A stretch of 64,000 nt of DNA from a virus. The position numbers and the translations under genes were made by a program. Location: positions 1-64,000 of IMG/VR virus record IMGVR_UViG_3300042731_008016, one strand, 5' to 3'. The notes beneath the pieces were generated by a model, which was not told where the DNA came from, searched no databases, and was given only the letters and a program-made list of their open reading frames with translations. Position 1 is the first letter of the stretch; the number at the start of each line of letters is the position of its first letter. Below, one piece after another: positions 1 through 18,652 of this stretch.

Positions 1-3000
1 GCTACATTTCTTACTAATGGTACTGATTATTCATTAGAGGATACTTCAACATGGACAGATATTGATATATCTGGTGATACTGGTGGTGAAACTGCAATAG
101 GTGCTATTTTTGAAATAGTTTGTTATGCAAATCAAGTCTATAGAAATTGTGGATTTAGAAAAAATGGAAGTACAGATACTCATATTTCTGGAACTTTTGG
201 ACACACTGGTAATGGTGGAAGGGGTGCTGGAGTTATTGGAGTTGATGGTAGTGAGATTTGTGAAGGTTATATAATAAATACAGATGTTGATTTTTGGTTA
301 GTTGGTTATATTACTGCTGATACTACATTTAACACTAATGCCACAGATTATTCATTGGGTTCTACTGGTAGCTATCAAGATTTAACTACATTACCAACTG
401 GTGCAACTGGGGGAATTATTGATGTTGTTTGCCCTTATTATTATATTTGTGCATTAAGAAAAAACGGATCTAGTGAAGATATATATTTATATGGAACGCA
501 AAGGATGTTCGGGTTAATAGAAGCTGATGAGGATAGAATTATAGAAGGAAAAATAAATAATGTTAATGTTGATTTTTGGTTAGTTGGTTATTTTAGTGAG
601 GGTAGCACTACTTCTACTAAGACAGTTTCAGCTAAGGCACATGTATTGAGTTCTGGTGTAACTAAAACAATTCAGGCAAAAGCAAAAATTCAAATTGGGC
701 ATACAAAAACGATTACGGCAAAAGTAAGAATTAAAATAAGCAATTTTCAAACAATTGCTTCAAAAGCTGCGATTATCAATTTAACTCCAGCTCATTTCCT
801 AGATGATGTCCAACAGCAAAGTGGTAATTCATGGGCATCTGTTGCCAAGAAAATTCCAGCTAGTCATTTCTATAGAAAAGCAAGCCAAGGAGTAACACCA
901 AGCCACAATTTTGAAATCTTTAGTGTAAAAACATTATTTCAATGGTCAGACTCTGATAAAGAACAGGGAACTTTACGATGCAAAATTTATGAAACATCTG
1001 GAGAAACCCCAACAGGATCACCAATAGCCACAGCTATTAATACTCAAGAAATGGCTGATATCAAATATTGGGGTGATGATGCTCCTAATTATACAATATC
1101 TTACTTTTACTTTGCTCCTGGAACAGTTTTAGAATCAGGAACTAAATATTGTATTGTTTTAGAGGTTGATAATAACGATTTACCAACTGGCAATGATCTA
1201 AATACCTTTATTCAAACAACTAATCCCTATGCTGGTGGTTTATTCTCGCAAGAAAGATCAATAGATGATGGTGAAAGCTGGCACTGGACATATAGTAGTG
1301 CAAACGATCTTTACTTTGCAGCAGAAGAGTATGGAACTAGACAAACAATTACTATCACAGCTAAAAGTCGCATCCAAATAGAATCAACTCAAACAACAAC
1401 TTCAAAAGCAAGAATTCAAATTAGCGAAACTCAAACTATAGATACTAAAGCGAATATTTTCGGCACAACTTCACGAATAATAACCGTAAAAGTAAATATT
1501 AAAAAATTATCAACTCAAACGATTTCAGTTAAGGGAAAAATTACGACAATAAGCACGCAAGCAATAAATGCTCTTGGACGAATTACTTCTACATACAACG
1601 AACAGACTATTGAGGCTAAAACCAGAATCCAAAAATCTACCACTTACACAATAACTGCAAAAGGAAGAATCAGCGTAGGTAGAGAAGAGACCATCACTGC
1701 AAAAGGTAGAATTAGAAAACAATTCAGTCAAACTATTAATGCTAAAGGGAGAATTCAGAAAAGTTTTGGTCAAACACTTTCTGTGCTAGGTCGAATTCAA
1801 AAACAATTCCAAGCTACAATTAATGCTTTGGGAAGAATTGAAATAACTAAAACTAAAACCATTAGCACTTTGGGAAGAATCCAATTAGGTGGAGATAAAA
1901 ATATAGAAGCTAAGGCTAACATTAAAGCAACTCAATCCCAAACAACATCGTCATTAGCAGCTATCAAGAGAACATTTGAAAAAACTATCACCGCTGTTGG
2001 TCGAATTACCATATTTTCAGAACAAACAATTGACTCTAAAGCGAGTATTGGTAAGACATTTACACGAACAGTAAATGCTATCGGACGAATCCAAAAACAA
2101 TTTGACCAAACCATCTCAGCATTAGGAAGAATCCAAAAAGAGGCCATTCAAACAATTGAGGCTCTAGGTAGAGTTCAAATTGGAAGCACTCAAACCGTTA
2201 ACACCAAAGCAGCTATCCAAAGATCGGTAGAAAAAAATATTAGTGTTCTTGGAAGAATCACGATTATTTCTATCCAAACAGTCAGCACTCTAACTGATAT
2301 TAAAAAGCAAACAAACAAAATTATAAGAGCCATAGGAAGAATTGGAATAGCTGAAGGTAAAAATATCGAGGCCAAAGGTAATATCAAAGCAAATCTAGAA
2401 CAAATTGTTTCTGCCAAAACTGCAATTCAAAGAAGTTTTGAACAAAACATTGAAACCAAAGCTAGAATTACTATTGTCAATGAGCAAACAATTGAGGCTA
2501 AAGCTGACATTAAAGTTAATCAAATTCAAACCATAAATTCAAAAGCTAGAATTACTATTACAAACCAAAAAACAATAGAGATTCTAAGTCGAATTCAAAA
2601 ACAATTCACTCAAAATATTAGTGTTTTAGGTAGAATTACGGTAAATACCTCTCAAACATTATCTACAAAAGCTGCTATTTTGAAAAACTTTACCAAGACA
2701 ATCAGTGCTTTGGGAAAAATCGCAATTAGCTCTACTCAAACCATAGATGTCAAAGCTTCGATTAAAAAATTAACTGAAAGAACAATTCAGGTAAAGGGTC
2801 GAATTCAAATAAGTAGTGAAAAATCACTCACTTCTAAGGGAAATATCAAGAGAGAGCAGTCTCAAATAATAAGTGCTCTTGGAGACATCAAGAAACAATT
2901 CGAGCAAACCATAGAGACAGTTGGACGTATTCAAATATCTACCGAACAGCAAATCAATGCTATCGGTAATATCCTTGTAACCCAACCAAAAACTATATCA

Positions 3001-4011
3001 GCCAGAGGAAGAATAACACGCACATTCTCAAAGACAATTTCTGCTCTTGGAAGAATAGAAAAGCAATTTAGCCAAACAATTTCTGCTCTCGGACGAATAA
3101 CCATTTCAACTGAACAAAACATCTCTACTAAAGCTGCAATTAGACGAGTATTTACTCAAACAGTTGAAGGTAAAGGAAGAATATCTATCACGTCTGAGCA
3201 ACAAATATCTGCTAGAGCCGATATTAAAAAGGAACTATCTCAGACAGTAGAGGCTAAAGGTCGGATCGGGTTGGTGGAAAATGTTCAAACCGTAGAAGCT
3301 AAAGCTAATATCTTGGCAATCCTAGAACAAAGCATAGAGGCTCTTGGTACTATTAAAAAAACGTTCTCACAAACAGTCTTAGCAATTGGTCGAATTGAAA
3401 TCAGCACAAACCAAACAATTGATGCCATCGGTAATATAAAGGCAACTCAATCTAAAACAGTTAATGCTAAAGGTAGAATTACTAATAACTACAGTCAAAC
3501 AGTAAATGCTCTTGGACGAATCATAGCCACAACAAATCAAGAAATAACTGTAGAAATCAAAGGTTCAATTAAAAAGAATCTATCACAAACAGTTGAATTT
3601 AAAGGTAAAATCCAAATTTTCAGTGAACAAACTATCGTTGTAAATGCAGATATTAAACTTGAGCAAAGTAAAACAATTTTTGCAAAAGCGTCTTTATTCT
3701 CAGTCACCATACAAACAGTTCAAGCCAAAGCTCAATTGCAAACAGGTGGCGAGGAGCAAACTATACAAACAGGCGCCCGTATTGTAAGATTAAGAACAGA
3801 GACAATTTCTGCTAAAGCAAGGATTATAACCTATGCGATAGTAGAAATTATCGACAGAGTTAGAAGTCAAGACCTTATCGAAGAGTTAACTTATGTTAAA
3901 TCTAGAGTGAGAGCAGTCTCATATAGTAAGGTCTCAGTAGTAAATATCTGTGATCCTAGCAGAGTAGTCCGAACTAAATGGATGACTACTAAGGCCAGAA
4001 TTACACATTAA
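1..4011 (+). CDS. Partial giant repeat-rich virion fibre or decoration protein
   Basis: The frame is already open at base 1, so the start lies upstream; at least 1,336 residues are encoded. Order: two tandem copies (about 115 residues each) of a domain sharing the phrase VDFWLVGY; four 14-residue units; a unique segment of about 180 residues resembling a surface beta-sandwich (contains ESGTKYCIVLEV); then about sixty more 14-residue units (consensus xTIxAKxRI) to the C-terminus. It ends just before a strong ribosome site for the neck gene, a position where head decoration fibres often sit. I infer a long fibrous surface protein; head versus tail is not shown. No catalytic motif seen. Confidence 0.75.
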   Translation, partial: ATFLTNGTDYSLEDTSTWTDIDISGDTGGETAIGAIFEIVCYANQVYRNCGFRKNGSTDTHISGTFGHTGNGGRGAGVIGVDGSEICEGYIINTDVDFWLVGYITADTTFNTNATDYSLGSTGSYQDLTTLPTGATGGIIDVVCPYYYICALRKNGSSEDIYLYGTQRMFGLIEADEDRIIEGKINNVNVDFWLVGYFSEGSTTSTKTVSAKAHVLSSGVTKTIQAKAKIQIGHTKTITAKVRIKISNFQTIASKAAIINLTPAHFLDDVQQQSGNSWASVAKKIPASHFYRKASQGVTPSHNFEIFSVKTLFQWSDSDKEQGTLRCKIYETSGETPTGSPIATAINTQEMADIKYWGDDAPNYTISYFYFAPGTVLESGTKYCIVLEVDNNDLPTGNDLNTFIQTTNPYAGGLFSQERSIDDGESWHWTYSSANDLYFAAEEYGTRQTITITAKSRIQIESTQTTTSKARIQISETQTIDTKANIFGTTSRIITVKVNIKKLSTQTISVKGKITTISTQAINALGRITSTYNEQTIEAKTRIQKSTTYTITAKGRISVGREETITAKGRIRKQFSQTINAKGRIQKSFGQTLSVLGRIQKQFQATINALGRIEITKTKTISTLGRIQLGGDKNIEAKANIKATQSQTTSSLAAIKRTFEKTITAVGRITIFSEQTIDSKASIGKTFTRTVNAIGRIQKQFDQTISALGRIQKEAIQTIEALGRVQIGSTQTVNTKAAIQRSVEKNISVLGRITIISIQTVSTLTDIKKQTNKIIRAIGRIGIAEGKNIEAKGNIKANLEQIVSAKTAIQRSFEQNIETKARITIVNEQTIEAKADIKVNQIQTINSKARITITNQKTIEILSRIQKQFTQNISVLGRITVNTSQTLSTKAAILKNFTKTISALGKIAISSTQTIDVKASIKKLTERTIQVKGRIQISSEKSLTSKGNIKREQSQIISALGDIKKQFEQTIETVGRIQISTEQQINAIGNILVTQPKTISARGRITRTFSKTISALGRIEKQFSQTISALGRITISTEQNISTKAAIRRVFTQTVEGKGRISITSEQQISARADIKKELSQTVEAKGRIGLVENVQTVEAKANILAILEQSIEALGTIKKTFSQTVLAIGRIEISTNQTIDAIGNIKATQSKTVNAKGRITNNYSQTVNALGRIIATTNQEITVEIKGSIKKNLSQTVEFKGKIQIFSEQTIVVNADIKLEQSKTIFAKASLFSVTIQTVQAKAQLQTGGEEQTIQTGARIVRLRTETISAKARIITYAIVEIIDRVRSQDLIEELTYVKSRVRAVSYSKVSVVNICDPSRVVRTKWMTTKARITH
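1340..3940 (+). repeat. About sixty tandem 42-base coding repeats (14-residue units)
   Basis: Units follow one another at exactly 14 residues over most of the stretch, for example QTISALGRIQKEAI then QTIEALGRVQIGST. Positions Q/K1, T2, I/V3, A5, K/L6, R8 and I9 are conserved and the rest vary. DNA copies have diverged, so this is an old amplification and not a recent slippage product. The alternating hydrophobic pattern suggests short beta strands stacked in a solenoid or prism (inference). Confidence 0.85.
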
Positions 4012-4025
4012 AAAGGAGGTAAAAT

Positions 4026-5000
4026 ATGATCGACCAAATATTAAAAGATACCTCTGACAAGATTGAAGTCGACATTTACTATAACAATGTCCTGACTCCA
4101 CCTGATTCAATTAGTATTAGGGAAATAAGAGACCCAAATGGAAATATTATCCTAACCAATCAATCAGTTACCGCAGGATCAACCACTGGAAGATATGAAT
4201 ACACCATGGGAGCAGCTTACACCTCTACTCTTGGTGTATACACTGCCATTTGGAGATTTGTAATCAATAGCGCTACTTATGAGCATACTCAATATTTTGA
4301 GGTTGTCTCTTCTCTTCGTCAGGGATATATCACACCATACGAAGTAAGACAGAAAACTGTTTATGAGGGAATCACCGATGATAGCCCGACTGATGCTGTT
4401 CTTCAAAAGTATATTGATAGATCCACAGCCATAATGGACAACTTTTTCGGTGGTTCAATTAACTACGCTATTTACACAGAAAAAAGACGCTGTGTTTTAG
4501 ATAAAGTTCATAATGGAGTTCATATCCAATTGAAATATAGACCGATTGTGAGTTTAACTTCAGTTCAATTAATGCAAGGTCCAACTAATACTCTAGATCT
4601 TGATACTGATTACATCAGAATTAATGAAGAGGCTGGTTATCTAGAATATTTTAATGATATCAGCGTTCCAACTTTAAGAATTTGTACTTTTGATCCATCA
4701 AGAACACAAATTATTCCTGTCGCCACCGTTGTTTATACAGCTGGATATGTAACTGTACCAGATAACGTAAAAGAAGCTGCAGCAATGTTAGTTGAATTCT
4801 TATACAAACAAACAAAAGGTGATGATAAACAATTGGTAAGATTCACTATTGATGAGGTAACTGAACAATACAGGACATCAAAAACCGAAGAATCAGCGAT
4901 GGCAGAATTAGGAGTCGGTAGTGTGCAACCAATATTAAAACTATTAAGACCATACAGATTGCCATATAAGACTTTGCCGTTTGTTGGTCCACTAGGATAA
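4026..5000 (+). CDS. Head-tail connector (neck) protein with N-terminal Ig-like domain
   Basis: The start is set by AAAAAGGAGG seven bases upstream. Residues 1-95 look like an immunoglobulin-type beta domain (GRYEYTMGAAYTSTLGVYTA). Residues 100-320 resemble the gp6/gp15-type head-tail connector: a helical N-part (TPYEVRQKT), a central strand region (YRPIVSLTSVQL) and a helix beginning VPDNVKEAAAMLVEFLYK. Such proteins form the ring under the portal. Neighbours are the head-closure and tail-completion genes, in the usual siphovirus order. Family assignment is from pattern and position only. Confidence 0.7.
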   Translation: MIDQILKDTSDKIEVDIYYNNVLTPPDSISIREIRDPNGNIILTNQSVTAGSTTGRYEYTMGAAYTSTLGVYTAIWRFVINSATYEHTQYFEVVSSLRQGYITPYEVRQKTVYEGITDDSPTDAVLQKYIDRSTAIMDNFFGGSINYAIYTEKRRCVLDKVHNGVHIQLKYRPIVSLTSVQLMQGPTNTLDLDTDYIRINEEAGYLEYFNDISVPTLRICTFDPSRTQIIPVATVVYTAGYVTVPDNVKEAAAMLVEFLYKQTKGDDKQLVRFTIDEVTEQYRTSKTEESAMAELGVGSVQPILKLLRPYRLPYKTLPFVGPLG

Positions 5001-5004
5001 AGCC

Positions 5005-5433
5005 ATGAGCATTCGAAGAATACCTGATAGGTATTTAATCACTAGATTATATTTTTTTAGAGAAAGCACAATCATTGATAGCGTTGGAGATCATGATGTT
5101 AGTGAAACATTAGCATACGCTGAAGTTAAAGCCAGTGTCCAACCAAAAACGAGTGATATTTCTTACGAGCTTGCTGGAGTTACTCATAGACAAACTCATG
5201 TTGCCAGATTCAATCGATTTGAAGATGATACTCTTAGATTAATTCAACCAACTGATAGAGCTCTAGACAAAGAAACTGGAATGAGTTTTATGATTCTGGC
5301 AATAAAAAATTGGCAAGCAGCTCAAGACAGTATTAGTGATAGCCATCATATAAGTTTGATATTAAAGAATGTAACTGGCCAATATGACACAACTCAATTC
5401 AAGACAGTTACTTCGAAAGCACGAATATCATGA
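5005..5433 (+). CDS. Head-closure/head-tail joining protein with C-terminal repeat unit
   Basis: 142 residues, four bases after the connector gene. Size, order and a middle beta region (QPKTSDISYELAGVTHRQTHVARF) fit a siphovirus head-closure protein acting as stopper below the connector. The last 13 residues (FKTVTSKARIS) match the 14-residue repeat that fills the giant upstream protein, so a single repeat unit has been appended to a neck protein. This odd tail is directly visible; its role is unknown. Confidence 0.6.
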   Translation: MSIRRIPDRYLITRLYFFRESTIIDSVGDHDVSETLAYAEVKASVQPKTSDISYELAGVTHRQTHVARFNRFEDDTLRLIQPTDRALDKETGMSFMILAIKNWQAAQDSISDSHHISLILKNVTGQYDTTQFKTVTSKARIS

Positions 5434-5492
5434 GAAATAAAGTTGTAACTCTAAGAAATATAACAAAATTATAAATTATTAAAAAGGCTAAT

Positions 5493-6008
5493 TTGAAATT
5501 AGGTTTATCTTTATCTGGCATCAATCAAACAATAAAAAATCTTGAAGGTGCTGGCTTTGTTCTTCAAACAAACTTTAAATCCGAGCTAATCAATCAAGGA
5601 AAAAGTTTGAAAAATAAAGCCAAAGAAATTCTAGAGAGAGAATCTAGTCTTCGAACTAATAAGAGATTTTGGACTGGTAAACTTCAAGACTCTATAGAGA
5701 TGAACATTCTTCATGAAAAAGGTGATATTATTGGTATTAGTGTTGGACCAGATATGAGGAAAGTTCCTTATGCAGAGTGGGTTGAAATAGGGCACTATGT
5801 TTATGGAGGATTTTATAGCACCAAAGGAGATTGGTGGGAAGGTTATCACTATATGGAGCAAACTTACGCTGAAGTAGAACCAAATATTGCAAAACAAATA
5901 GCTGATACCTTAAAAGTTAAACTCAATAGTTATGCCAGAACTGCATCAAAGAGAACTCAACATAAAAAGACAGGTCGCTTTGTAGCAGGATTCGGAGGTT
6001 GGAACTAA
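5493..6008 (+). CDS. HK97 gp10-like tail completion/neck protein
   Basis: 171 residues. The start is a TTG preceded by AAAAGG; no ATG fits before the conserved part. N-terminal helices (KSLKNKAKEILE) lead into a strand-rich core with VGPDMRKVPYAEWVEIGHYVYGG, the pattern of gp10-like minor virion proteins (PxAxxxExG). It lies between head closure and tail terminator, as expected for a protein joining tail to head. Its stop and the next ATG are one base apart. Confidence 0.65.
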   Translation: MKLGLSLSGINQTIKNLEGAGFVLQTNFKSELINQGKSLKNKAKEILERESSLRTNKRFWTGKLQDSIEMNILHEKGDIIGISVGPDMRKVPYAEWVEIGHYVYGGFYSTKGDWWEGYHYMEQTYAEVEPNIAKQIADTLKVKLNSYARTASKRTQHKKTGRFVAGFGGWN

Positions 6009-6009
6009 T

Positions 6010-6450
6010 ATGTCAACATACGACAAAAACATACACTATCTAAAAGAAGCAATATTTAGCAAATTAAATAATAGCTCTGATTTGGCTACTTTATTGGGAG
6101 GATCTGGTAGAATTTATCATCGACAACCACCCAACGAAGCCAAATATCCCTGCCTAATTTATTCTATTATCAATGACACTGATAATGTATTCAATGAAGA
6201 TCGATCAACTGGCGAGGTAACAAGAGCATTTATTAGAATTAGTATTTTTTCAAAGTCGAAAAAAACCGAGGAGTCTGACAACATAGAAGCTAAGGTTAAA
6301 TCGCTTTTACACGGCCAACGTACTTTGGACACTACTAAGATAATTTGCTATAGTTGTTATAGGGACAACCTCTTAGAGCCCAGAAGAGACCCTGATGATA
6401 AAATTTGGATAACCCAAACTAGATATCGGACAAGTTGGGCAGTAAAATAA
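6010..6450 (+). CDS. Tail terminator protein
   Basis: 146 residues. Fits the siphovirus tail-terminator (DUF3168-like) pattern: an N-terminal helix followed by IYHRQPPNEAKYPCLIYSI and later strands with RTYRTSW-like ends. These proteins cap the tail tube and set its end. Position just before the tube genes supports the call. Translation is probably coupled to the gp10-like gene because the two genes almost touch. Confidence 0.65.
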   Translation: MSTYDKNIHYLKEAIFSKLNNSSDLATLLGGSGRIYHRQPPNEAKYPCLIYSIINDTDNVFNEDRSTGEVTRAFIRISIFSKSKKTEESDNIEAKVKSLLHGQRTLDTTKIICYSCYRDNLLEPRRDPDDKIWITQTRYRTSWAVK

Positions 6451-6476
6451 GTTAGAAGGAATAGTAGGAGGAATTT

Positions 6477-6830
6477 ATGACAACTCAAGTAAAAGTTCAA
6501 ACAAATCCTAAAGGTACGCTTGTTAAAAAGCCATCATATCTTTTGGAACTTGAAGCTAAATGGAAAAGATGGACAGGTATCGACGATAAAGAAGCTTTTG
6601 AAGCTCTCAAGGATTTATCTGGCGACCTATGGGGTGAATTAAGAAAACTTGAGGCACAACTCTGTAAAGAAATTGAAAACAGAGAATTGCCAGAAGATTT
6701 CAAAGAATTCACTAAAGCCAAAATCAGAGATACTTGGAGAGATATTATTGGCCACCAAAAAATTGGTTTGGACAAACTCTGCATAGTAGTTAGAAGATAC
6801 CTTGACGAAGACGTTAAGGAGGACAAATAA
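6477..6830 (+). CDS. Conserved-position hypothetical virion-region protein
   Basis: 117 residues, helical and charged (LELEAKWKRWTGIDDKEAFEALKDLSG), with a good AGTAGGAGG site. No domain recognised. It sits between tail terminator and tail tube in the late operon, so a small structural or assembly role is likely but unproven. Confidence 0.7.
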   Translation: MTTQVKVQTNPKGTLVKKPSYLLELEAKWKRWTGIDDKEAFEALKDLSGDLWGELRKLEAQLCKEIENRELPEDFKEFTKAKIRDTWRDIIGHQKIGLDKLCIVVRRYLDEDVKEDK

Positions 6831-6833
6831 AAT

Positions 6834-7280
6834 ATGAACAAAACAAGAAGATCACGATCTTCTGAACCAGAAGAAAAGATCGAGACCAAAGCAGTCATCG
6901 AAGAACCTAAGGACGAAGTTGAATCAACTAAATCTGAGGAGACTAAAGATGATGACGAAGTAACTGTTGTCTCTCGTCCAAAAAAGATCGTTCGAAAAGG
7001 TACTACTAAATCATCTCGACCTCAAGTAAAATATAGAGAGGTAGTATATCTCGGCACTGCCGATAAATCTACTGTAAGAGGTGCGGTAACAGGCAATAAA
7101 TACACATTCATAAAAGATGAGTATGATATGCCAGTAGCAGTAAATGTAGATGAAAGAGACTACCCTGCAGTTATCGCTCTTAAAGGAAAAGGTTGCGCTC
7201 GAAGGGACCCACGAGCTTTATTTATGAATAAACAAGATTGGGACCTAGAAATAGCATCAGCTAAACGAGCAAATAGTTAA
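6834..7280 (+). CDS. Hypothetical virion-region protein with disordered acidic N-terminus
   Basis: 148 residues. Residues 1-60 are low-complexity and rich in Glu, Lys and Asp; residues 60-148 look folded (YREVVYLGTADKSTVRGAVTG). AAGGAGG lies about 12 bases before the ATG. Position before the tube gene suggests an assembly or minor tail protein. Not recognised. Confidence 0.7.
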   Translation: MNKTRRSRSSEPEEKIETKAVIEEPKDEVESTKSEETKDDDEVTVVSRPKKIVRKGTTKSSRPQVKYREVVYLGTADKSTVRGAVTGNKYTFIKDEYDMPVAVNVDERDYPAVIALKGKGCARRDPRALFMNKQDWDLEIASAKRANS

Positions 7281-7332
7281 AGTCATAGTTTCAGTGTCAG
7301 ATCGTTATTAAAATTTTAGGAGGATTCAAACT

Positions 7333-7893
7333 ATGGCAGTCACAACCACAAACATTAACGTTTCTGGTGCCGTGGTCAGATTAGGAGGAACCGTAACAGC
7401 TGACGGCGGAAACGCCGACTGGTACGATGTAAGCCCCCAAGGAACTGATGTCGGATGTACTCAAGGAGGAGTTACTGTAACTTACTCTCTTGATTTATCT
7501 GATATCTTCTGTGATCAAATCACCGTCCCAGTTGATGTTGCTATAACAGGTGAGACAGCTGCAATCGAATTCTCAATGTTAGAATCTACAGCCGAAAACA
7601 TGAAGCTGGCTTTAGCTGACTTCGCTTCGTCAGAAGATGAAGCTGGAGTTGCTTACTGGCTTGGTGTTGGTGGTATTAACACAGTTTCGTTCACACCACT
7701 TGAGCTAGAGATTACTGACAACGACACAGGATATTTGACAACCTGGACATTCTTCAGAACAATCTGTGGCGGAATCGAGACTAACTTTGAGAGAGAGAAT
7801 CCAACTGCATTTGGTGTTACGTTTACAGCCTACGCTGATACAACACATAGCAGTGGAAAACAGCTGTTTCAAGTTCGACAGAACAAGGCATAA
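7333..7893 (+). CDS. Major tail tube protein
   Basis: 186 residues, strand-rich, with AGGAGG upstream. The opening VRLGGTVTADGGNADWYDVS, the central EFSMLESTAENMKLAL and the closing AFGVTFTAYADTT follow the fold of siphovirus tube subunits. It is immediately followed by the frameshifted chaperone pair and the tape measure, which is the standard order. It would polymerise as hexameric rings around the tape measure. Confidence 0.75.
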   Translation: MAVTTTNINVSGAVVRLGGTVTADGGNADWYDVSPQGTDVGCTQGGVTVTYSLDLSDIFCDQITVPVDVAITGETAAIEFSMLESTAENMKLALADFASSEDEAGVAYWLGVGGINTVSFTPLELEITDNDTGYLTTWTFFRTICGGIETNFERENPTAFGVTFTAYADTTHSSGKQLFQVRQNKA

Positions 7894-7927
7894 ACGAAGC
7901 GTAACACCCCTATAAGTTAGGAGTATT

Positions 7928-8727: not shown

Positions 8728-8728
8728 T

Positions 8729-11700
8729 ATGGCACAAATAGGTGAACTACTAATCGCACTACAAGGAGATTCTAAAAGCTGGTCCAGCACAATGAAAACA
8801 GCTGGCCAAGATCTAAGAACACTTGTAAAAGAAAGTCAGAAAGCTGGACAAGAGCTTAATGATTTTAATGCCAAAACAGTCAACTTACTAAAAGGTTGGA
8901 AAAATGAAATTGGTGATGCCTATCGAAGTTTAGAAAAATCTCTCGATCCAGTAAAAAAAGGATTAGTAGAACAAGGCAAAGCTCTTAGTGTTAATCAAAA
9001 AGGCATCAATAAATTAGCTTTAGAAGCAGTTGTTGGTGCTGAGAAGATGAAGACTTTAAACGATAGTTTAAAAACCACATCTAATTCATTGTGGTTAATG
9101 AATCGAGGTCTTCAACAATTTGGCATCTCGATGACAACTGCCTTTACAGTTCCTATTTTAGCTGCAGGTGCACTATCAGTAAAACAATTTGCTGAATGGG
9201 AACAAGGAACACTTTCAATTCAAAGAGCTGCTGAAATTACAAGAACTGAAGCTGAAAATATTACTGAATCCTTTGTCAAAATTTCTCAACAAGTACCATT
9301 AACTGTCGAAGAACTTCAAAAAGCTGGTTATGCAGCTGCTCAGGCTGGTGTGACTGGTGAAGAATCGATCACTAACTTTGCCAAAGCTGCAACTATGCTA
9401 AGTAAGGTTGGCGGAGATGCGTTCAAAGACCTCCCTGTAGAAGACTTAGCCAATAAATTAGCCTATCTTGGTATTGCTTTTGGAGAAACTGGTGAAAATT
9501 GGAGTAACGTTAATAATTTAGCGTCTACTTTACTGGTTGTTGCAAAAGCCGTTCCAGGAGGATTATCGGAAATTATTGAGGCTATGAGAAGAGCTTCTGG
9601 TGCAGCTTCAACATTCGGTCTGTCATTATCTGACACTACCGCAGCCATGGGTACGCTCGTAGCTGCAGGTGTTCCAGCTTCAAGAGCTGGTACTGAATTC
9701 CAATCAGTATTACTAGATATGGCAACCAATGCAGATAAAGTTGCTCAATCATTGGGATACACAAATGAAAACATGAATGAATTCAAAGAGCGAATGGAAA
9801 CAGACATGCTTGGAGTTCTTGATGAATTAATTCAAAGATATGGTTTAGTTGATGGGAAAATAGATGAAACTCAACATTTACAAGAAATTTTTGGAAAAAC
9901 ATCTTTGAAAGCATTATTACCATTGATTGAAAATGTAGATTTGTTCCATGATTTGCAAGCCAGAGCTAATGGAGAAATGGAAAACGGAGCGTTGTTGGCA
10001 GCTGAATTTGCTGTTGAAGCTAATAGCTTGAGTGGAACATTCTCTGTCTTTAAAAATAATGTAGATGCTCTCAAAAAGGCAATTGGAGATGACTTAGCTC
10101 CCTATGTTAATTTATTTCTCAAAAGTGTTACTACAGGACTTCAAAGTGTAGTAGCATGGTGGGAAAAACTTAATCCCACTATTAAGGTTGCTATTGTAGC
10201 CTTTGCTGCCTTATTAGCCTTAATCGGACCATTAGCATTATTGTTAAATACTCTTTTTATAAGCCCAATTTTCAGTTTAAGTAGATTACTATCTGGTTTA
10301 GTTGGTTTAGTTATCGAACTTGGCGCTACTGCTTCAGCTGGAACAGTAGCAAGTGTTTCTATGAGTGGTTTAAGTGGGGCATTTGTAGCTGCTACTGGCG
10401 CTGTAGCATCATTGATTAAAGGAATCGCTATCTTAGCACTTCAATTAGGAACAATAGTGGCCATTATTGGAGTTGCAATTGCTGCAGTTTATTTATTGGG
10501 TAAAGCCTTTGGTATTGGATTTAAACTACCAAAAATGCCAGAAATTAAATTGCCTAAGTCTAAGGGAACTGGAGCTGGTGCAATAACCGATCTTGGTGGT
10601 CAAGAAAAATTAGCTCAAGTTGATGAAGATGCTGCTAAAGAAAGAGAAAAAGCCCTTAAAAAAGAAATGAAGGAAAAGAAAAAAGCTAGAGATAAAGAGC
10701 TAAAAATCATTGATAAAAATATTAAAGATTTCCAAAAAGTTAGCGACAGGGAAATTAAAGCAAGACAAAAATTAGTTGATGAACAAGAACAGGCTTTATA
10801 TGACAGACGAGAGCAGTGGGAAGATGAACAACGACTTGAACAAGAAAAAATCAGAATGCAAGAGGAAACTCTAGAAACTGCAAAAGAAACTCTTAAAAAA
10901 GCTAAAAAAGAACTTAATGCTTTGGAAGATGCTCAAGATGAACAAGTAGACTTGGCAGAAGATAAAGTTGATTATGCAGAAATGAATTTAAAGGCTGCTC
11001 AAGATGCTTTAAAAAGAGAAAAATTACTTGGTAAAGATGAATTTGATGCAAGCTATAGAGCTGCTCTAGAACGTGTCGAGGCATGGGAAGCAGCTACACA
11101 ATTGGCTAGAGAAAATGTAATTGCAGTTAAAAAAGAATATCAAAAACAAATCAATGCTCAAGAAGAAATTGTTGACGCTAATGAAGAACAAGTAGATTTA
11201 CAAACAAGTGCCTTGGATGATTTGAAAGATGCACTTAAAGAAAGAAAAGCTGTAGTTGATAAAGAAATTGATGTTCTTCAAGATGAGTTAAAAATCAGAC
11301 AAGATGCACTCAGTGATTATAAATCTAGTGCCGATGAAAAACTTGATTTATTACGTGAAGAAAAATCAGCTCGTCAAGAAGCTTGGGATGAAGAATTGGC
11401 TATTTTACAAGATCAATTAGATGCAGCTAGAGATTTTGCTGATGAACTAAGTAACTCTGGCATATCTGAACTTCCGAAAGCAACTCAGGGAGCAATTGAT
11501 AGTTTTGAAGCTCTTGATGCTGAATTCCAAAAACAAATTGAAGAAATGCAAACTGATATTAAAAAAGCAATGTCATTTGGTCCAGAAATAAAAGAGGGTG
11601 GATTAATTGCAGATTATAAAAATGCATGGGAAGGTGCTAAAGAACTAGCAGAAACAGAAGGTAAAAGTGCTGGACAAATATATGTCGAAGCAATGTGGGC

Positions 11701-12661
11701 CAGTCTAGTAGACACAGTTTCTAGCACTGTAGATGAAATTTTTGGTCAGTTAGTTTTTGGAGATAATATGGATGAAGCTAGAAAAATGGCAAAAGAAGAA
11801 GGTAAGTCATTTTCTCAATTGATATGGGAAGGAGTTAAGGAATGGTGGGAACGTGAAGTTAAAGAAAAATTTTCCAAATGGATTAATGAAAAAATTATCG
11901 ATCCAATAAAAGATATTTTACCTAATGTAAAACAAAAAGGAAAAGATATTATTGGAAACGTAGCTCAGGGAATTTGGGAAGGATTAATTTGGATAAAAGA
12001 CGCAGTTACAGCAATCGGGACTTGGCCTCTTGATGGAATAAAAAATATAATTAGTATAGCTAAACAATTTGGAAGAGAAATAATTGGAAATATTTCTCAA
12101 GGTATATGGGACGGACTAGATTGGGTTAAAACTGCAATTAATACTATTGGTGGTTGGCCGATGAACGAAATCAGAAATATAATTAACAATGCAAAAAATT
12201 GGGGTAAAGATATGATAGGTAACTTTGCCCAAGGAATTTGGGATGGTATGAATTGGGTTAAAGACGCAGTTAAAAATATGGCTAATTGGCTTAAAGGAAT
12301 TTTACATTTTTCCGAACCAGACTTTGGCCCCCTAAAGGGAATGAATGATTGGGGTAAAGACATGATTAAAACTTATATAGATGGAATTAAGAGTGAAATA
12401 CCAAATCTAGAAGACACATTAAATAAAATAAGCGTTAATAAAAATCTTGAAAATATTAATGGAAATGTTGGAAATTCATTTACTGGAATGGCCTCAAATA
12501 GCATAGCAGAAGGAAAAGTTGCACCAGCTATAGCTCAATCAACCTCAACAGTCAATAAAAATTACTATATTCAACCTGGTCAAATGATTGCAACCAGAGG
12601 TGAAGTTAGAAGTTTTGTGAGATTATTAAAAGAATATGACAAATTCGAAGAGGAAAGGTAA
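8729..12661 (+). CDS. Tail tape measure protein
   Basis: 1,310 residues, the longest complete gene of the tail block. Residues 100-480 resemble TP901-type tape measures (WEQGTLSIQRAAEITRTEAE; ASRAGTEFQSVLLDMATN). Hydrophobic segments follow at about 490-600 (AIVAFAALLALIGPLALLL and others), then a long Glu/Lys/Gln coiled coil at about 630-900. The C-terminal part carries three tandem units of about 40 residues built on IGNxAQGIWxGxxWVK. The protein sets tail length and is ejected ahead of DNA. The ATG overlaps the G-T end by a one-base gap. Confidence 0.9.
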   Translation: MAQIGELLIALQGDSKSWSSTMKTAGQDLRTLVKESQKAGQELNDFNAKTVNLLKGWKNEIGDAYRSLEKSLDPVKKGLVEQGKALSVNQKGINKLALEAVVGAEKMKTLNDSLKTTSNSLWLMNRGLQQFGISMTTAFTVPILAAGALSVKQFAEWEQGTLSIQRAAEITRTEAENITESFVKISQQVPLTVEELQKAGYAAAQAGVTGEESITNFAKAATMLSKVGGDAFKDLPVEDLANKLAYLGIAFGETGENWSNVNNLASTLLVVAKAVPGGLSEIIEAMRRASGAASTFGLSLSDTTAAMGTLVAAGVPASRAGTEFQSVLLDMATNADKVAQSLGYTNENMNEFKERMETDMLGVLDELIQRYGLVDGKIDETQHLQEIFGKTSLKALLPLIENVDLFHDLQARANGEMENGALLAAEFAVEANSLSGTFSVFKNNVDALKKAIGDDLAPYVNLFLKSVTTGLQSVVAWWEKLNPTIKVAIVAFAALLALIGPLALLLNTLFISPIFSLSRLLSGLVGLVIELGATASAGTVASVSMSGLSGAFVAATGAVASLIKGIAILALQLGTIVAIIGVAIAAVYLLGKAFGIGFKLPKMPEIKLPKSKGTGAGAITDLGGQEKLAQVDEDAAKEREKALKKEMKEKKKARDKELKIIDKNIKDFQKVSDREIKARQKLVDEQEQALYDRREQWEDEQRLEQEKIRMQEETLETAKETLKKAKKELNALEDAQDEQVDLAEDKVDYAEMNLKAAQDALKREKLLGKDEFDASYRAALERVEAWEAATQLARENVIAVKKEYQKQINAQEEIVDANEEQVDLQTSALDDLKDALKERKAVVDKEIDVLQDELKIRQDALSDYKSSADEKLDLLREEKSARQEAWDEELAILQDQLDAARDFADELSNSGISELPKATQGAIDSFEALDAEFQKQIEEMQTDIKKAMSFGPEIKEGGLIADYKNAWEGAKELAETEGKSAGQIYVEAMWASLVDTVSSTVDEIFGQLVFGDNMDEARKMAKEEGKSFSQLIWEGVKEWWEREVKEKFSKWINEKIIDPIKDILPNVKQKGKDIIGNVAQGIWEGLIWIKDAVTAIGTWPLDGIKNIISIAKQFGREIIGNISQGIWDGLDWVKTAINTIGGWPMNEIRNIINNAKNWGKDMIGNFAQGIWDGMNWVKDAVKNMANWLKGILHFSEPDFGPLKGMNDWGKDMIKTYIDGIKSEIPNLEDTLNKISVNKNLENINGNVGNSFTGMASNSIAEGKVAPAIAQSTSTVNKNYYIQPGQMIATRGEVRSFVRLLKEYDKFEEER

Positions 12662-12663
12662 AT

Positions 12664-12726
12664 ATGGCAAATAGAGATAAATTGGAAAGATTTATAAATG
12701 GTTTTAAAAATAATAACAAAAAATAA
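12664..12726 (+). CDS. Small ORF of 20 residues after the tape measure
   Basis: ATG with GAGGAAAGG just upstream encodes a basic peptide (MANRDKLERFINGFKNNNKK) before a TAA. Spacing and ribosome site look real, but so short an ORF could be chance. No homologue recognised. Confidence 0.35.
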   Translation: MANRDKLERFINGFKNNNKK

Positions 12727-12755
12727 ATTTAAGATTTTATAAAGGATAAATAAAA

Positions 12756-13127
12756 ATGCAAATATCTAAACCAACATTCGGTGTAGCAACATTACCATTC
12801 CCAGATATGGCTACTATAACTCCTGTTTGGGTCAGCGCTGATGTTACCACTCTAGGAGGAAAAACTAGACGAGACGTAATGGCAAGAAAGTACCAATATG
12901 TCTTACAATGGAGATATATAAAAGTAGATGCCTATGATGCTCTTGAAGCCATAGTTAATACTTTATCTCCAGCTACCTTCGTATATGGGAAATGGCCACA
13001 AAGCTCCACCCCAGGAGTAAGTTGTTTAGGATCGCTGTCACAAAGAAGACTAGAGGTTGGAACTGGTGATTCTAGTTACTACTCAAGTGTAACCCTAACA
13101 CTTACCGAAGTAAACAGTAGGATATAA
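12756..13127 (+). CDS. Small tail protein between tape measure and hub
   Basis: 123 residues, strand-rich (ITPVWVSADVTTLGGKTRRDV; YYSSVTLTLTEVNSRI). It lies where siphoviruses encode the distal tail protein but is short for that family, so I only infer a tail-tip role. The ribosome site AAAGGA is moderate. Confidence 0.65.
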   Translation: MQISKPTFGVATLPFPDMATITPVWVSADVTTLGGKTRRDVMARKYQYVLQWRYIKVDAYDALEAIVNTLSPATFVYGKWPQSSTPGVSCLGSLSQRRLEVGTGDSSYYSSVTLTLTEVNSRI

Positions 13128-13130
13128 ATT

Positions 13131-15611
13131 ATGGCACAATTAGATACAACTTCTCTTAATAATGATGAAAATTTGAAAGCTTATTATAAATTTAGTAGCG
13201 GTTCTGACACTACTGATTCATCTGGTAATGGTAATACTTTAACGCACGTTAACACACCAACTAATACTACGGGAAAATATGGGGAGGGTATGCTTTACAC
13301 TAGATCTAGTAATGAATACTCTTATGCTGGAGATACTGCAACACTTTCTATTACTGGAGATCTTTCATTTGTTTGTTGGGTAAAAATTAGTCAATTACCA
13401 TCAACAGCTGGAGATGATTTTCAATTTGGATCTAAATGGATTTCGGTGGCAGGTGATCGTTCCTATTTTTTTAGAATTAGGGATGATAATATTGGCGATT
13501 TTAGATATTCACAAACAGGTAGTGACCAAACCCAAGTACAAACGTCAGCTCCCTATTTTGTTGCAGATGATGTTGGTAATTGGGTTCATTTTGCGATAAC
13601 AATTGATGTATCAAGTCAGACGTTTGTAGTATATAAAAATGGATCACCAGTTTCTCTAGGAAGTGTTAGTGGAACTAATACCGCTATTAATGATTGCGAA
13701 ACAGCATTTGGTATTGGTGTTAGAGAAGTGGGTGGAACGCCAGCTGGACATATGGATGGAGTGATGGATGATGTAGCCATCTTTGATAGAATTTTAACTG
13801 ATGATGAAGTTGCAGAATTATATAGTCAAAGATTTACCATTAATGCAAAAGCACATTTGTTGACAGTTGGAACCCAAACAATTCAAGCTAAGGCTTACAT
13901 TTCAACCAACTATACAATTCAAACAATTCAAGCTAAGGCATATCTTTCAGAATTTGACCACACAACCCAAACAATTCAGGCAAAAGCTAAAATTATAGAA
14001 ATAACAGAAACCACTACTATAAGTGGATTACAGGCAGTAGCACGAATTATTCCATCACAAGCATTTCTAGATGAGGTTGATGCTACGGTTAGAGAAATAA
14101 ACTATAAACTTGAAATTCAATGGGATGGCTTTTCATGGACAGACGAATCAGACTATTTTGTAAGCGCAAAAGCAAATGAAAAATTATCAGAAACATCTGG
14201 AGAAGGAATTGCCTCAACCCTCGATGTGGAATTACAAAATACAACCGAAAGATTTACCCCAGGTAACACATCTTCACCAATTTATGCCTACTTGAAACCA
14301 AGGGTGGAGATAAAATTGTCGATGATAATGGGTGGCTATACATACAGAATGTTTACTGGATATGTGAAAAATATCCATCCAAGTTTTAGAACAAAAGTAT
14401 GTAGTCTCGAATGCTATGACAATCAAGTTTTAGTTTATAACAAAAGAGCTAATGGAATTGTTTATCAAGACAAAAGAAGTGACCAATTACTGACCACACT
14501 ATCTGAACTTGCTGGTTTAACAGAAGATCAATTTAGTTTTGATATTGGAACTCACATTGTTAACTTTGGTTATTTTGAAGATAGAAACGTATGGCCAATC
14601 ATGGGAGAAATTGCAGTAGCCGAGAGAGGAAGAGTTTTCTTTGACAGAGATGGAATATTAAAATTCTGGAATAGAGATAAATTACATAATAGACACGCAT
14701 CAACAACAATTACTTTAGCCGATCATATTACTGACTTAGATTATTCAGTAGCAGAACATGAAATCAAAAATGCTATTATTGTACAAGCCACTCCAAGAGC
14801 AAGTGCTGGAATTAAGGTTATTTGGTCAAGTGGTAACGCAGAATATCTAAATCCGTACACTGACACGCTTGTTTGGATTCCAGCTAATAATAGTCAGGTT
14901 GCCACTCTTGAGTTAGATGATCCATGTACAACGTTTATTACTCCAGTTAAAAACATAGACTATACTGCCAATAGTGCCCAAGATGGGACTGGAGACGATC
15001 TAACCGACAACATTGTTATTAATGAATTTATTAACTATGGAAATGCGGTTTTCATTAGTGTCTTAAATATCGGAGATACTGATGCTTACCTAACAAAATT
15101 CCAAGTAAGAGGAAATCCAGCTGAAATTTTGAAATGGATTAGAGTTACCTCTACAGACGATCAAAGCATCAATGCTTATGGACGACAAGAATTTAAAATC
15201 GAAAACAACTTTATTGATAGTGAAGATTCAGCACGAGAAATTGCTGAAGAAGAACTATATCGAAGAAAAGATTCAGTAAATTTGTTCAGAATTAATATAA
15301 TTGGAATTCCTCATTTATTGTGTGGTGACGTAATCAATGTCGAACACCAAAGTGGTGTTTTTAAAGAATTTATGATTGATGAAATGACTTGGGATTTAGA
15401 TGATGGTGGATTTAAACAAAAACTTACTCTAGTCAATCCTTATATCTTCCCAAATAGAAAGACAATTGATGCTAGAGCTAACATTGTAGCTGCATTAAAG
15501 ACAGTTGCATCAAAAGCTAGAATTAAAGGTGCTAAAAACATAGTCGCTAAAGGAAGTATTAAATTAACCACAACCAGAACGGTGACTGGTAAAGGTAAAA
15601 TTGGCGCATAA
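13131..15611 (+). CDS. Tail hub/tip protein with LamG-like lectin domain and repeat units
   Basis: 826 residues. Residues 1-230 are a LamG/concanavalin-like domain (LKAYYKFSSGSDTTDSSGNG; DGVMDDVAIFDRILTDDEVA). Residues 235-290 hold three 14-residue units (QTIQAKAYI). Residues 310-765 resemble the baseplate hub or gp44/gpD-like tail protein (ITDLDYSVAEHEIKNAIIV). The C-terminus returns to four repeat units (KTVASKARI). A glycan-binding domain on a hub suggests contact with the host surface. The fusion of lectin, repeats and hub is the odd point. Confidence 0.75.
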   Translation: MAQLDTTSLNNDENLKAYYKFSSGSDTTDSSGNGNTLTHVNTPTNTTGKYGEGMLYTRSSNEYSYAGDTATLSITGDLSFVCWVKISQLPSTAGDDFQFGSKWISVAGDRSYFFRIRDDNIGDFRYSQTGSDQTQVQTSAPYFVADDVGNWVHFAITIDVSSQTFVVYKNGSPVSLGSVSGTNTAINDCETAFGIGVREVGGTPAGHMDGVMDDVAIFDRILTDDEVAELYSQRFTINAKAHLLTVGTQTIQAKAYISTNYTIQTIQAKAYLSEFDHTTQTIQAKAKIIEITETTTISGLQAVARIIPSQAFLDEVDATVREINYKLEIQWDGFSWTDESDYFVSAKANEKLSETSGEGIASTLDVELQNTTERFTPGNTSSPIYAYLKPRVEIKLSMIMGGYTYRMFTGYVKNIHPSFRTKVCSLECYDNQVLVYNKRANGIVYQDKRSDQLLTTLSELAGLTEDQFSFDIGTHIVNFGYFEDRNVWPIMGEIAVAERGRVFFDRDGILKFWNRDKLHNRHASTTITLADHITDLDYSVAEHEIKNAIIVQATPRASAGIKVIWSSGNAEYLNPYTDTLVWIPANNSQVATLELDDPCTTFITPVKNIDYTANSAQDGTGDDLTDNIVINEFINYGNAVFISVLNIGDTDAYLTKFQVRGNPAEILKWIRVTSTDDQSINAYGRQEFKIENNFIDSEDSAREIAEEELYRRKDSVNLFRINIIGIPHLLCGDVINVEHQSGVFKEFMIDEMTWDLDDGGFKQKLTLVNPYIFPNRKTIDARANIVAALKTVASKARIKGAKNIVAKGSIKLTTTRTVTGKGKIGA

Positions 15612-15613
15612 TT

Positions 15614-16261
15614 ATGGGAACACAAGTAAAAGTACCAAGTGGTAGTAAGCCAGGAAGTAATTTTCCACCTGTTGAAGTTTTTGAGATAGGTACACCAGGA
15701 AAACCAGGTGAGCTTATTATCCACAACGGAAAACTATATATCTATAACGAAAATGGAGAAACCCTCATTGATGGGGGAATTATCCAGGCTGCTGCTATAT
15801 TGGCTAACTCAATTACCGCCGATAAACTTACTATTGGATCAAAATCGTTTAGCCATAATTTAACCTGGACAGCTACAGACCAAGACACAGCTTCTTGGAG
15901 CGCTGGCACAATCAAGCTTGCAGATGATGAAACTACGGCCATTAACGCTGGAAATACTGGGAACATAAATTACACAACTTTTATTTACTTCGATGGCACT
16001 AGTGTTTTGAAAACAACTACAAATTATGCAAATGCCGTAGGTGACAGTAAAATTTTGCTTGCAATTGTTGAAAAAGGACAATTGGGAGGTGGCTGTGCAA
16101 TTACTCCAATCCAGTCAGCGGGAACAACCATTGACGCTAATAAAATAGTTACTGGTAAAGTCCAGTCAGTCGATGGTCAAACATATTTCGATTTAAACCT
16201 AGGTAGGATGATTATTAATGATGATAGCAACGACATTATCCTAATAGGAAAAAAACCATGA
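15614..16261 (+). CDS. Tail tip/fibre protein A
   Basis: 215 residues. A basic start is followed by GTPGKPGELIIHNGKLYIYN and then IQAAAILANSITADKLTIG, a segment commonly seen in phage tip and central fibre proteins. It is closely similar to the next gene over residues 25-205 (SFSHNLTWTATDQDTASWSAG against KFIHNITWTAVDMNTASWSA), so the two are a tandem duplication. Its end overlaps the next start by four bases. Confidence 0.7.
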   Translation: MGTQVKVPSGSKPGSNFPPVEVFEIGTPGKPGELIIHNGKLYIYNENGETLIDGGIIQAAAILANSITADKLTIGSKSFSHNLTWTATDQDTASWSAGTIKLADDETTAINAGNTGNINYTTFIYFDGTSVLKTTTNYANAVGDSKILLAIVEKGQLGGGCAITPIQSAGTTIDANKIVTGKVQSVDGQTYFDLNLGRMIINDDSNDIILIGKKP

Positions 16262-17271
16262 GTATATTAAATAAAATACTGAGCGGAGCAAGATTTGCGG
16301 GAAAAACATTGGAAAAACTAGAAGTAGGTAAACCAGGAAAGCCTCCGCAATTACTTATCTATAATGGAAAAATTTATGTCTACAACTCTGATGGTCAGGC
16401 ATTAATTGATGCTGGTTTAATTTCTGCAAATGCTTTTTTAGTAAATTCAATTACAGCTGATAAACTATCATTTTCTTCTAAAAAATTTATCCATAATATT
16501 ACTTGGACAGCGGTAGATATGAATACTGCTTCCTGGAGTGCAGGAACCATTAAGTTTTCCGATGGAACTTTGGCTGATATTTTTGCTGGTACCACTGGAA
16601 ATATAACTGAAAAACAATACATTTACTTTGATGGAAGCTCAACCCTTAAAAAGACAAAATACTACAATTCAGCTGTTGGTGGAAACCATGTGATTTTAGC
16701 AATTGTTCAACCAACAACCGATCCAGATGGTAAATGTATTCTCTCAACCTTTTTTTCTACAGGAACTACTATTGACGGAGATTTAATTACTACTGGTAAA
16801 GTTCAATCAATCAATGGAAAAACTTTTTTTGATCTAAACAATAACTTTTTTAAAATTCATGATGGAATTAAGACTAGATTGGTAATTGGAAAGCTTGCAG
16901 AGGGCTCCTATGGCATTAAATTATCGCTTTTTAGTTATGATGCCTTAACTGATACCGATATTAACCATTTTGCTCTTTGGGCTGCCTCAGACGACGCTAA
17001 TGACAATGTTTTAATCAAAGAAAAGACAAGAGGAAGTGTTTCAGTTGGCGCTTCTAGCAGTCAAAATATTGCTCATGGGCTTTCATATATTCCACTTTGT
17101 TTGGTATTCGTTGAATCTGCAGCTGGAGTATATACAAAAGCATTTGGACAAGGAATTTCTTTAGCCGATCAGTATTATGAAATCGATGGTACTTATTTAA
17201 GACTATATAATGATGGAGGGTCAGCAAAAATTTTTAAATATTATATTTTTTATGACCGAATGACAACATGA
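16258..17271 (+). CDS. Tail tip/fibre protein B, paralogue with extra C-terminal domain
   Basis: 337 residues. The first 210 residues are a duplicate of the preceding protein. The extra C-terminal domain (FSYDALTDTDINHFALWAA, then AHGLSYIPLCLVFVE) recurs in the next two genes. A core shared between proteins with different ends is typical of receptor-binding tips. ATGA overlaps couple it to both neighbours. Confidence 0.7.
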   Translation: MSILNKILSGARFAGKTLEKLEVGKPGKPPQLLIYNGKIYVYNSDGQALIDAGLISANAFLVNSITADKLSFSSKKFIHNITWTAVDMNTASWSAGTIKFSDGTLADIFAGTTGNITEKQYIYFDGSSTLKKTKYYNSAVGGNHVILAIVQPTTDPDGKCILSTFFSTGTTIDGDLITTGKVQSINGKTFFDLNNNFFKIHDGIKTRLVIGKLAEGSYGIKLSLFSYDALTDTDINHFALWAASDDANDNVLIKEKTRGSVSVGASSSQNIAHGLSYIPLCLVFVESAAGVYTKAFGQGISLADQYYEIDGTYLRLYNDGGSAKIFKYYIFYDRMTT

Positions 17272-17672
17272 GCTATATAATCGCAATCGCTAAAAATGGA
17301 TATGATGCACCAAATGAAAATGATCCTGAAAACTTCATTTTTCATTCTAGTTATAATACTTTTAAGATTATTAGAACTGGAAAATTAACTATTTCTGTGG
17401 CTGCTGCTACTAACGGACAAAAATTCTACGAACCACATCGTCTAAGTTTTACTCCATTAGTAATGGCGTTTGCAAAGGAAAGTGGTTACGACCAAGTATT
17501 TCCTCCAAATACTGAAAATATTTATTCTTATGGAGCAATGGCAGGATTAATTGGAACTGGTTTAAAATTTGTATCAGTCTCATCAGATGGAACAAATTTA
17601 ATTTTTGAATTTGATAATTCTGGCGGAGAGAAAACAGTTTACGTTAGATATTATTGTTTGGAGACTATTTAA
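17268..17672 (+). CDS. Fibre-tip domain protein
   Basis: 134 residues made almost only of the domain found at the C-termini of the flanking genes: AKNGYDAPNENDPENFIFHS, then PHRLSFTPLVMAFAKE. It probably makes a stand-alone receptor-binding or tip subunit. Function is inferred from position and paralogy only. Confidence 0.65.
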   Translation: MSYIIAIAKNGYDAPNENDPENFIFHSSYNTFKIIRTGKLTISVAAATNGQKFYEPHRLSFTPLVMAFAKESGYDQVFPPNTENIYSYGAMAGLIGTGLKFVSVSSDGTNLIFEFDNSGGEKTVYVRYYCLETI

Positions 17673-17674
17673 TT

Positions 17675-18652
17675 ATGTCACAATATGATGAACAAGTATC
17701 AGCGTCAACAGAAGATGGAGCAACATATACTGGCTCTAATTATTGGAGTGTGTTAAATAATTATTTAGCTGTTGGAAATAATCAAGTTGGATTTTTCAGA
17801 TTTAATAATCTTCCAATGGGACAAGGTGCCACAATTGACTCTGCCTATTTCAAAGTTTGGACACATGAATATGGGTTTTCTAATTCAGTTCAATTAAAAA
17901 TTAGAGCTATTGACCAAGATGACACTGCAGCATTTCCATCAAGTAACGGAACCAATACAGATCCATTAAATAGACCAAGAACTAGCGCTGGTATTGATTT
18001 TGATTTTGATGGTACTCGAAATGTTTTGCGTACTTCACCTGATATTAAAACAGTCATTCAAGAAATTATTGATCGAGCGGGATGGACTGGTGGAAACGAT
18101 CTAGCGATAGTTTTAGAAAATGATGGTTCTGCCTACAATAATGAACTCTGGCCATACGATTATGGATCAGCTAAAGCAGCAGAATTAATTATTAACTATA
18201 CTGGAATCAGTACCCATCAACAACAAATATCTGCAGCTGCTCACATCATTAATCCAACTCTTGATTATGGCATTATAGTAATGAAGTCAACTTATGATGT
18301 CTTAACTGATAAGAATCCAGCACATCAGGTTTTCAATTCTGATTATGGAACATTAAAATACTTCGTAAGTGGTTCAGTAGAAATTTATTTGGCAGCTGGA
18401 TATTTAGCAGCAGTACAAAGTTACGAACATAATTTAGGTTATATTCCATTTGTAGAAGTTTATGCTGAAACAGTTTTAGCAAATAGATATCAGTATGCCC
18501 CTTATAGTGGGGCTGGAGCTACAGTCTTATATGGAGTAACTTATAGGATTACATCAACTCATATTTATTTTTATGCTGAGTCAACTGGATTTGCTGGAGA
18601 TACAACTTTTAAAGTTAAATTCTTTTTGTTCAGGAATGACTTAGACTTATAA
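17675..18652 (+). CDS. Receptor-binding-like protein with beta-sandwich domain
   Basis: 325 residues; ATG at 17675 chosen because GGAG lies 11 bases upstream, rather than an upstream TTG. Residues 1-175 resemble DNRLRE/CBM-type beta sandwiches (LPMGQGATIDSAYFKVWTH; GGNDLAIVLENDGSAYNN). Then comes one copy of the 14-residue unit (QQQISAAAHIINPT), and residues 200-325 are the tip domain shared with the two previous genes (HNLGYIPFVEVYAE). Last gene of the tail block, so probably host recognition. Confidence 0.65.
   Translation: MSQYDEQVSASTEDGATYTGSNYWSVLNNYLAVGNNQVGFFRFNNLPMGQGATIDSAYFKVWTHEYGFSNSVQLKIRAIDQDDTAAFPSSNGTNTDPLNRPRTSAGIDFDFDGTRNVLRTSPDIKTVIQEIIDRAGWTGGNDLAIVLENDGSAYNNELWPYDYGSAKAAELIINYTGISTHQQQISAAAHIINPTLDYGIIVMKSTYDVLTDKNPAHQVFNSDYGTLKYFVSGSVEIYLAAGYLAAVQSYEHNLGYIPFVEVYAETVLANRYQYAPYSGAGATVLYGVTYRITSTHIYFYAESTGFAGDTTFKVKFFLFRNDLDL

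Follow-up and report, generated by a model that had tools for sequence, protein, structure and literature searches.

A repeat unit of 14 residues is shared by three virion proteins of the phage studied here: a giant fibre protein, the tail hub protein and the head-closure (stopper) protein, HCP. We consider it fairly probable that this unit is a fibre-shaft repeat of all-beta structure which serves as a promiscuous linker, that the giant protein is anchored at the neck or a vertex, and that the bare units on HCP and the hub join or seat the shafts. The arrays would then space variable lectin-like modules away from the conserved parts that anchor them in the virion, namely the C-terminal anchor of the giant protein, the core of the tail hub and, in one relative (L007), the distal-tail protein. 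The position of the arrays between variable modules and conserved virion parts is well supported. Each unit presumably contributes one beta strand, and the shafts would be oligomeric, probably trimeric. As for the giant fibre, its C-terminus most likely holds it to the neck or to the capsid vertex next to it; attachment to the neck is suggested by the gene order and by the likeness of the C-termini of HCP and the giant protein. The bare single units at the C-terminus of HCP and at the ends of the hub are most likely short strands by which shafts are joined or seated, and probably serve as docking stubs.

The window, the whole stretch of DNA that was analysed, comprises bases 1-64000 of the 100,839-base IMG/VR virus record IMGVR_UViG_3300042731_008016. 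The record is circular, the final 69 bases being a copy of the first 69, and the phage genome thus has 100,770 bp. The frame of the first gene stays open to base 1 and continues over the join of the circle. Because it crosses the origin, the giant protein has 1440 aa, starting with MSVTWITP at 100459 of the circular record. With a position-specific matrix trained on the giant's own units, 63 units were detected. The first-pass annotation had described about sixty units of exact period filling this protein. The count agrees, and 56 of the 62 spacings are exactly 14 residues; the others are 15 (four times), 16 (once) and one gap of 200 residues, which is an inserted other domain. The units do not fill the protein from end to end, as the N-terminal modules and a C-terminal anchor of 59 aa are without array. 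This anchor is kept in all seven giants that have a C-terminus. The head of the giant (window 1-620 and the part before the origin) contains three copies of a module of ~95 aa (..GSWVDVD..GVILHI..RKNGSTD..), probably a binding domain. The features are collected in Table 1.

Table 1. Repeat-bearing proteins, their neighbours and associated features (window positions unless a locus is named)
Feature	Position	Strand	Basis
Giant repeat fibre protein, C-terminal 1336 of 1440 aa	1..4011	+	open frame to base 1, 69-bp end repeat, 63 units
First short array, 4 units, between N-terminal modules	622..774	+	unit scan
Longest unbroken run, 40 units at exactly 14 residues	1603..3282	+	PSSM scan
Conserved C-terminal anchor, ending in unit-like strand KWMTTKARI	3832..4008	+	alignments A2 and A8
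Head-tail adaptor	4026..5000	+	phrog_442 head-tail adaptor, E 1e-23
Head-closure (stopper) protein, HCP	5005..5433	+	PF05521 below cut-off (E 0.003); Foldseek
Single C-terminal unit KTVTSKARIS	5401..5430	+	kept in relatives, predicted free arm
Protein at distal-tail position	12756..13127	+	gene order
Tail hub protein, LamG - 4 units - hub core - 4 units	13131..15611	+	Pfam PF13385 E 1e-16, PF24032; PHROG tail proteins; unit scan
Four units between LamG and hub core (hub aa ~235-288)	13833..13994	+	unit scan
Four bare C-terminal units after ...NPYIFP (hub aa ~777-824)	15459..15608	+	unit scan
Lone unit-like stretch QQISAAAHI in last fibre gene (17654/17675-18652)	18221..18247	+	score 13.7
Endonuclease-like ORF	L006:11276-11797		by-eye call
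Endonuclease-like ORF	L006:14549-15025		by-eye call
Endonuclease-like ORF	L022:3716-4612		by-eye call
Endonuclease-like ORF	L034:4595-5482		by-eye call

Pooled over 466 units, the consensus is Q-T-I-[TSE]-A-K-[GA]-R-I-[QK]-[KI]-x-x-[TS], with I, V or L at positions 3 and 9, A at position 5 and G or A at position 7. Thr, Ile and Val together account for 33% of the residues and Pro for 0.3%. Gly ranges from 0.17 to 1.0 per unit; it occupies position 7 in half of the family's units and is rare elsewhere. The net charge per unit is +1.3 to +3.2, and Thr plus Ser amount to 15-26%. This chemistry fits beta strands. The PDB sequence matches of the arrays were only to coiled-coil proteins (spike and haemagglutinin stalk sequences, found with phmmer) and were judged spurious; a coiled-coil reading was rejected because Gly or Ala at position 7 and the high content of Thr, Ile and Val are unsuited to helices. 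At the DNA level the units are ~48% identical, and adjacent units are no more alike than distant ones, which rules out recent tandem duplication. The arrays are old, and since their period has stayed strict despite this divergence, it must be the structure that is under constraint.

No array-wide or above-cut-off match was obtained for the arrays in Pfam, PHROGs or NCBIfam. None was found in the 50,697 phage records of INPHARED either, where the low-complexity masking of BLAST may conceal some. The patterns applied to 84,980 species genomes confirmed neither an array nor an adaptor homologue; the pattern QTI[TS]AK[GA]... does not cover units of the K type, as found in far relatives. A viral scan with a K-type array recovered only the query's own contig. 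We regard the 14-residue unit as a putative shaft repeat that is undescribed in the libraries searched and whose distribution over fibre, hub and neck is unusual.

Related IMG/VR phages that form a family were collected with the hub, the adaptor, HCP and the anchor as queries. In all contigs that extend far enough, the giant repeat gene is the immediate or nearly immediate upstream neighbour of the head-tail adaptor gene. All intact giants of this family consist of variable N-terminal modules, 54 to 122 units and a conserved C-terminus of 59-85 aa, which across relatives ends in a unit-like strand, KWxTAKARI. The N-terminal modules differ between relatives and include LamG, Disaggr/DNRLRE-like, SGL and others. 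In the hubs a conserved core is preceded by units and followed, after ...NPYIFP, by 0 to 4 more; the modules and arrays on its N-terminal side are variable. Bare C-terminal hub units are present in five of six phages, and single bare N-terminal ones in L007 and L030. The distal-tail protein of L007, a homologue of the window's protein at this position, has an N-terminal extension with about 20 units, and L012 has an additional 332-aa protein carrying four. The unit thus behaves as a promiscuous module of giant, hub, distal-tail protein (L007) and extra protein (L012), with counts that vary among relatives. This supports the earlier suggestion of repeated domain capture: array length, position and attached modules vary, while the virion-anchoring parts are conserved.

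In the hub of the window, where three plus four units had been reported, both arrays are present but contain four units each, with scores of 10.4-22.6. The unit assigned to the last fibre gene did not hold up. It is a lone stretch which by its score is within chance: nine other lone matches of score 12 or more occur in ~1,566 ORFs, several of them on the wrong strand, and 0.15 matches above 12 are expected per shuffled genome. The stretch is preceded by 'INYT', which also precedes arrays in L015; this is a hint only. Hence, of the at least four virion proteins that the first-pass annotation had listed as sharing the unit, the giant, HCP and the hub are secure in the window and the last fibre protein is unproven. 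In L009, L012 and L016 the homologue of the major tail protein (gene at window 7333-7893) starts with a weak unit-like stretch (ANINVKGAV, TNINVKGAI; scores 10.1-11.7), which is probably due to chance.

HCP was recognized as a stopper by its barrel fold in Foldseek and by its position after the adaptor gene; the best Foldseek matches were neck proteins of lambda, 7-7-1 and Pam3 (best E 1e-3). One unit had been noted at the very end of this protein, and indeed its last ten residues reach a unit score of 20.6, compared with 13.7 for the best 9-mer in the window's non-repeat ORFs. In 10 of the 12 phages whose HCPs were scored, the tail is the top-scoring 9-mer of the locus, above all non-repeat proteins. 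Among 1,176 non-array ORFs there are ten with a unit at the C-terminal end, nine of them HCPs. Ten relatives with 47-59% identity retain the tail in the alignment (A11), in which F132, T136, K138 and I141 are conserved at 90% or more. The match of the HCP tail to the unit is not chance. An AlphaFold2 model of HCP with ten homologues gave a barrel of moderate confidence, outside of which residues 125-142 were unstructured (pLDDT below 50), and the tail is therefore taken as an arm separate from the barrel. The tag is thus predicted to be free and not buried in an unrelated fold; such burial had been named as an outcome that would refute a shared module. The C-termini of giant and HCP are similar in the family (KWxTAKARI and KTVTSKAKI). 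A profile comparison left the HCP tail unaligned with the array and aligned other segments at 9% probability.

Arrays are also found in phages outside the family (L037-L039). The spacing in far relatives is 14 or 15 residues, either mixed or mainly 15. In L038 the arrays are near lysis genes, so that a link to the neck is not universal. In L039 the giant gene adjoins the adaptor gene, and no ORF beside these two genes ends in a unit. At the C-terminus of the shafts of L039, L045, L049 and L072 there is a short segment without repeats, which is similar in L049 and L072. A conserved protein, referred to as the 168-aa protein (164-173 aa, beginning MAATF(Q/N)W), is encoded at 98003-98509 of the record (L006:14003-14509). 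The proteins of the window's phage and L039 are 55% identical, and in L039, too, the gene lies upstream of the array gene. A scan with the 168-aa protein yielded 47 IMG/VR loci (L034, L040-L085) in widely different phages. Where at least 4 kb of downstream sequence was available (27 loci), an array gene starts 1.2-2.3 kb downstream of the 168-aa gene in 15 cases; in three more it follows farther on. The protein has no family match and no match in 50,697 phage records; it may be a partner of the fibre or form its base. In 28 of 41 loci the 4.5 kb upstream of the 168-aa gene contain glycosyltransferase-like genes. The genome studied here has at least seven glycosyltransferases, one of them with two domains, at 64001-98000 of the record (L005, L006); seven were confirmed by Pfam. 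Small endonuclease-like ORFs, judged by eye, are variably present between structural genes near the fibre cassette; for the two in L006 there was no Pfam match.

Since the HCP tail links nothing, a linker role cannot account for it. One would naturally suppose that it docks to the fibre, but a plain arm adding a strand to a neighbouring neck protein is about as likely. In its general form, as the common docking or strand-swap system suggested in the first-pass annotation, docking would mean that the units on HCP, hub and fibres join these proteins like with like, by strand exchange or in mixed bundles, with use as a linker being secondary. This is possible, though rather unlikely. It would explain why bare units end chains to which no module is attached, as seen at the C-termini of HCP and of most hubs and at the N-terminus of two hubs, as well as the predicted free arm and the similar last strands of giant and HCP. 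It would also suit L053, an unrelated phage in which a 142-aa protein of four units adjoins a 621-aa protein with three bare N-terminal units. However, the bare units could be relics, a role as shaft or linker explains most copies well, and the neck proteins of L039 have no C-terminal unit despite the adjacent array gene. A more far-reaching proposal, and a more doubtful one, is a strand-docking code: one 14-residue strand unit, which the head-closure ring and the tail hub carry bare and the fibres in up to 122 copies, would join virion proteins to interchangeable adhesive fibres; several lineages of uncultured phages would have it as a cassette with the conserved 168-aa protein and often with glycosyltransferases. 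We likewise think it rather unlikely that the HCP tail is an ordinary C-terminal arm which adds to a sheet of an adjacent neck protein and resembles the unit by convergence. Such arms have a precedent in phage Milano, where the C-terminal arms of the tail terminator add a strand to the sheath (PMC10491603), the AlphaFold2 model is as expected for one, and lone unit-like peptides of score 12-18 do arise by chance. Yet convergence does not easily explain that the tail beats every 9-mer of the locus's non-repeat proteins in 10 of the 12 phages scored, nor that the enrichment at C-termini is specific to HCP.

For the array itself, AlphaFold2 of a monomer of array plus anchor gave an all-beta model of low confidence (pLDDT 44); isolated peptides of the adenovirus shaft likewise remain unfolded (PMC8869412). 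With a presumed rise of 4.8 to 13 Angstrom per unit, a shaft of 63 units would be about 30-80 nm long. A monomeric beta-solenoid, formed by the stacking of successive units of a single chain, would agree with the short strict period and the alternating hydrophobic pattern, and the giant of L010 has a weak, below-cut-off Pfam match to Fil_haemagg. It is improbable nevertheless: the arrays have no superperiod of 28 or 42 residues, AlphaFold2 yielded no confident solenoid when supplied with 42 in-register rows, and within-protein covariation, evaluated against within-protein shuffles, revealed no same-position coupling for unit distances of 1 to 8, which leaves stacking within one chain unsupported. 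The absence of such coupling is compatible with an oligomeric shaft but no proof of one. Still less probable is a cationic glycosylated stalk, in which the array itself would bind a polyanionic host surface and its Thr and Ser would be glycosylated by phage enzymes. The positive charge and the Thr and Ser content of the units point in this direction, as do the glycosyltransferases of this genome and those upstream of the 168-aa gene. However, a glycosyltransferase is present in ~11 of 15 well-covered loci with arrays and in 2-3 of 6 without, which, for loci of the 168-aa gene, is no clear difference. The preferred reading is the all-beta fibre shaft.

Such a shaft has partial counterparts in known systems. 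The adenovirus fibre shaft, a triple beta-spiral, has a similarly short repeat of ~15 residues, alternating hydrophobics and a rod-like form, and the periods found here (14 in the family; in far relatives a mixture of 14 and 15, or mainly 15) are of this kind. However, triple beta-spirals have a conserved turn Pro or Gly, which was not found in the present units with their 0.3% Pro and 0.17 to 1.0 Gly per unit. The Ig-like domains of phage virion proteins (Fraser et al. 2006) and of T4 Hoc (PMC10385173) are likewise promiscuous surface modules on several kinds of virion protein. In contrast to these, the module described here is not a folded domain but a 14-residue strand unit, which occurs in arrays of up to 122 and as bare single units on neck and hub; 14 residues are too short for an Ig-like fold, and no array region had a Pfam Ig match. 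The triple-stranded beta-helix of T4 gp5 (PMC4576200) is also a strand repeat on a component of the tail hub, but its motif is the 8-residue VxGxxxxx, whereas here the period is 14 and the VxG pattern is absent. The neck fibres of Anabaena phage A-1(L) (gp80-gp82, PMC10966104) and the T4 whiskers resemble the proposed giant fibre in being long, anchored at the neck and equipped with a carbohydrate-binding module at the far end. The fibres of A-1(L), however, are chains of separate trimeric beads, whereas here one chain bears all units and would attach to the neck.

The repeat family has no entry in the searched libraries and is absent from the cultured phages searched; annotation by sequence therefore currently overlooks it. 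Phage fibres determine what a particle can adhere to. A short shaft unit of adjustable length, common to fibre, hub and neck, would explain how adhesive modules can be exchanged without rebuilding the particle, and if the bare units dock shafts, the unit would be a plug-in connector inside virions.
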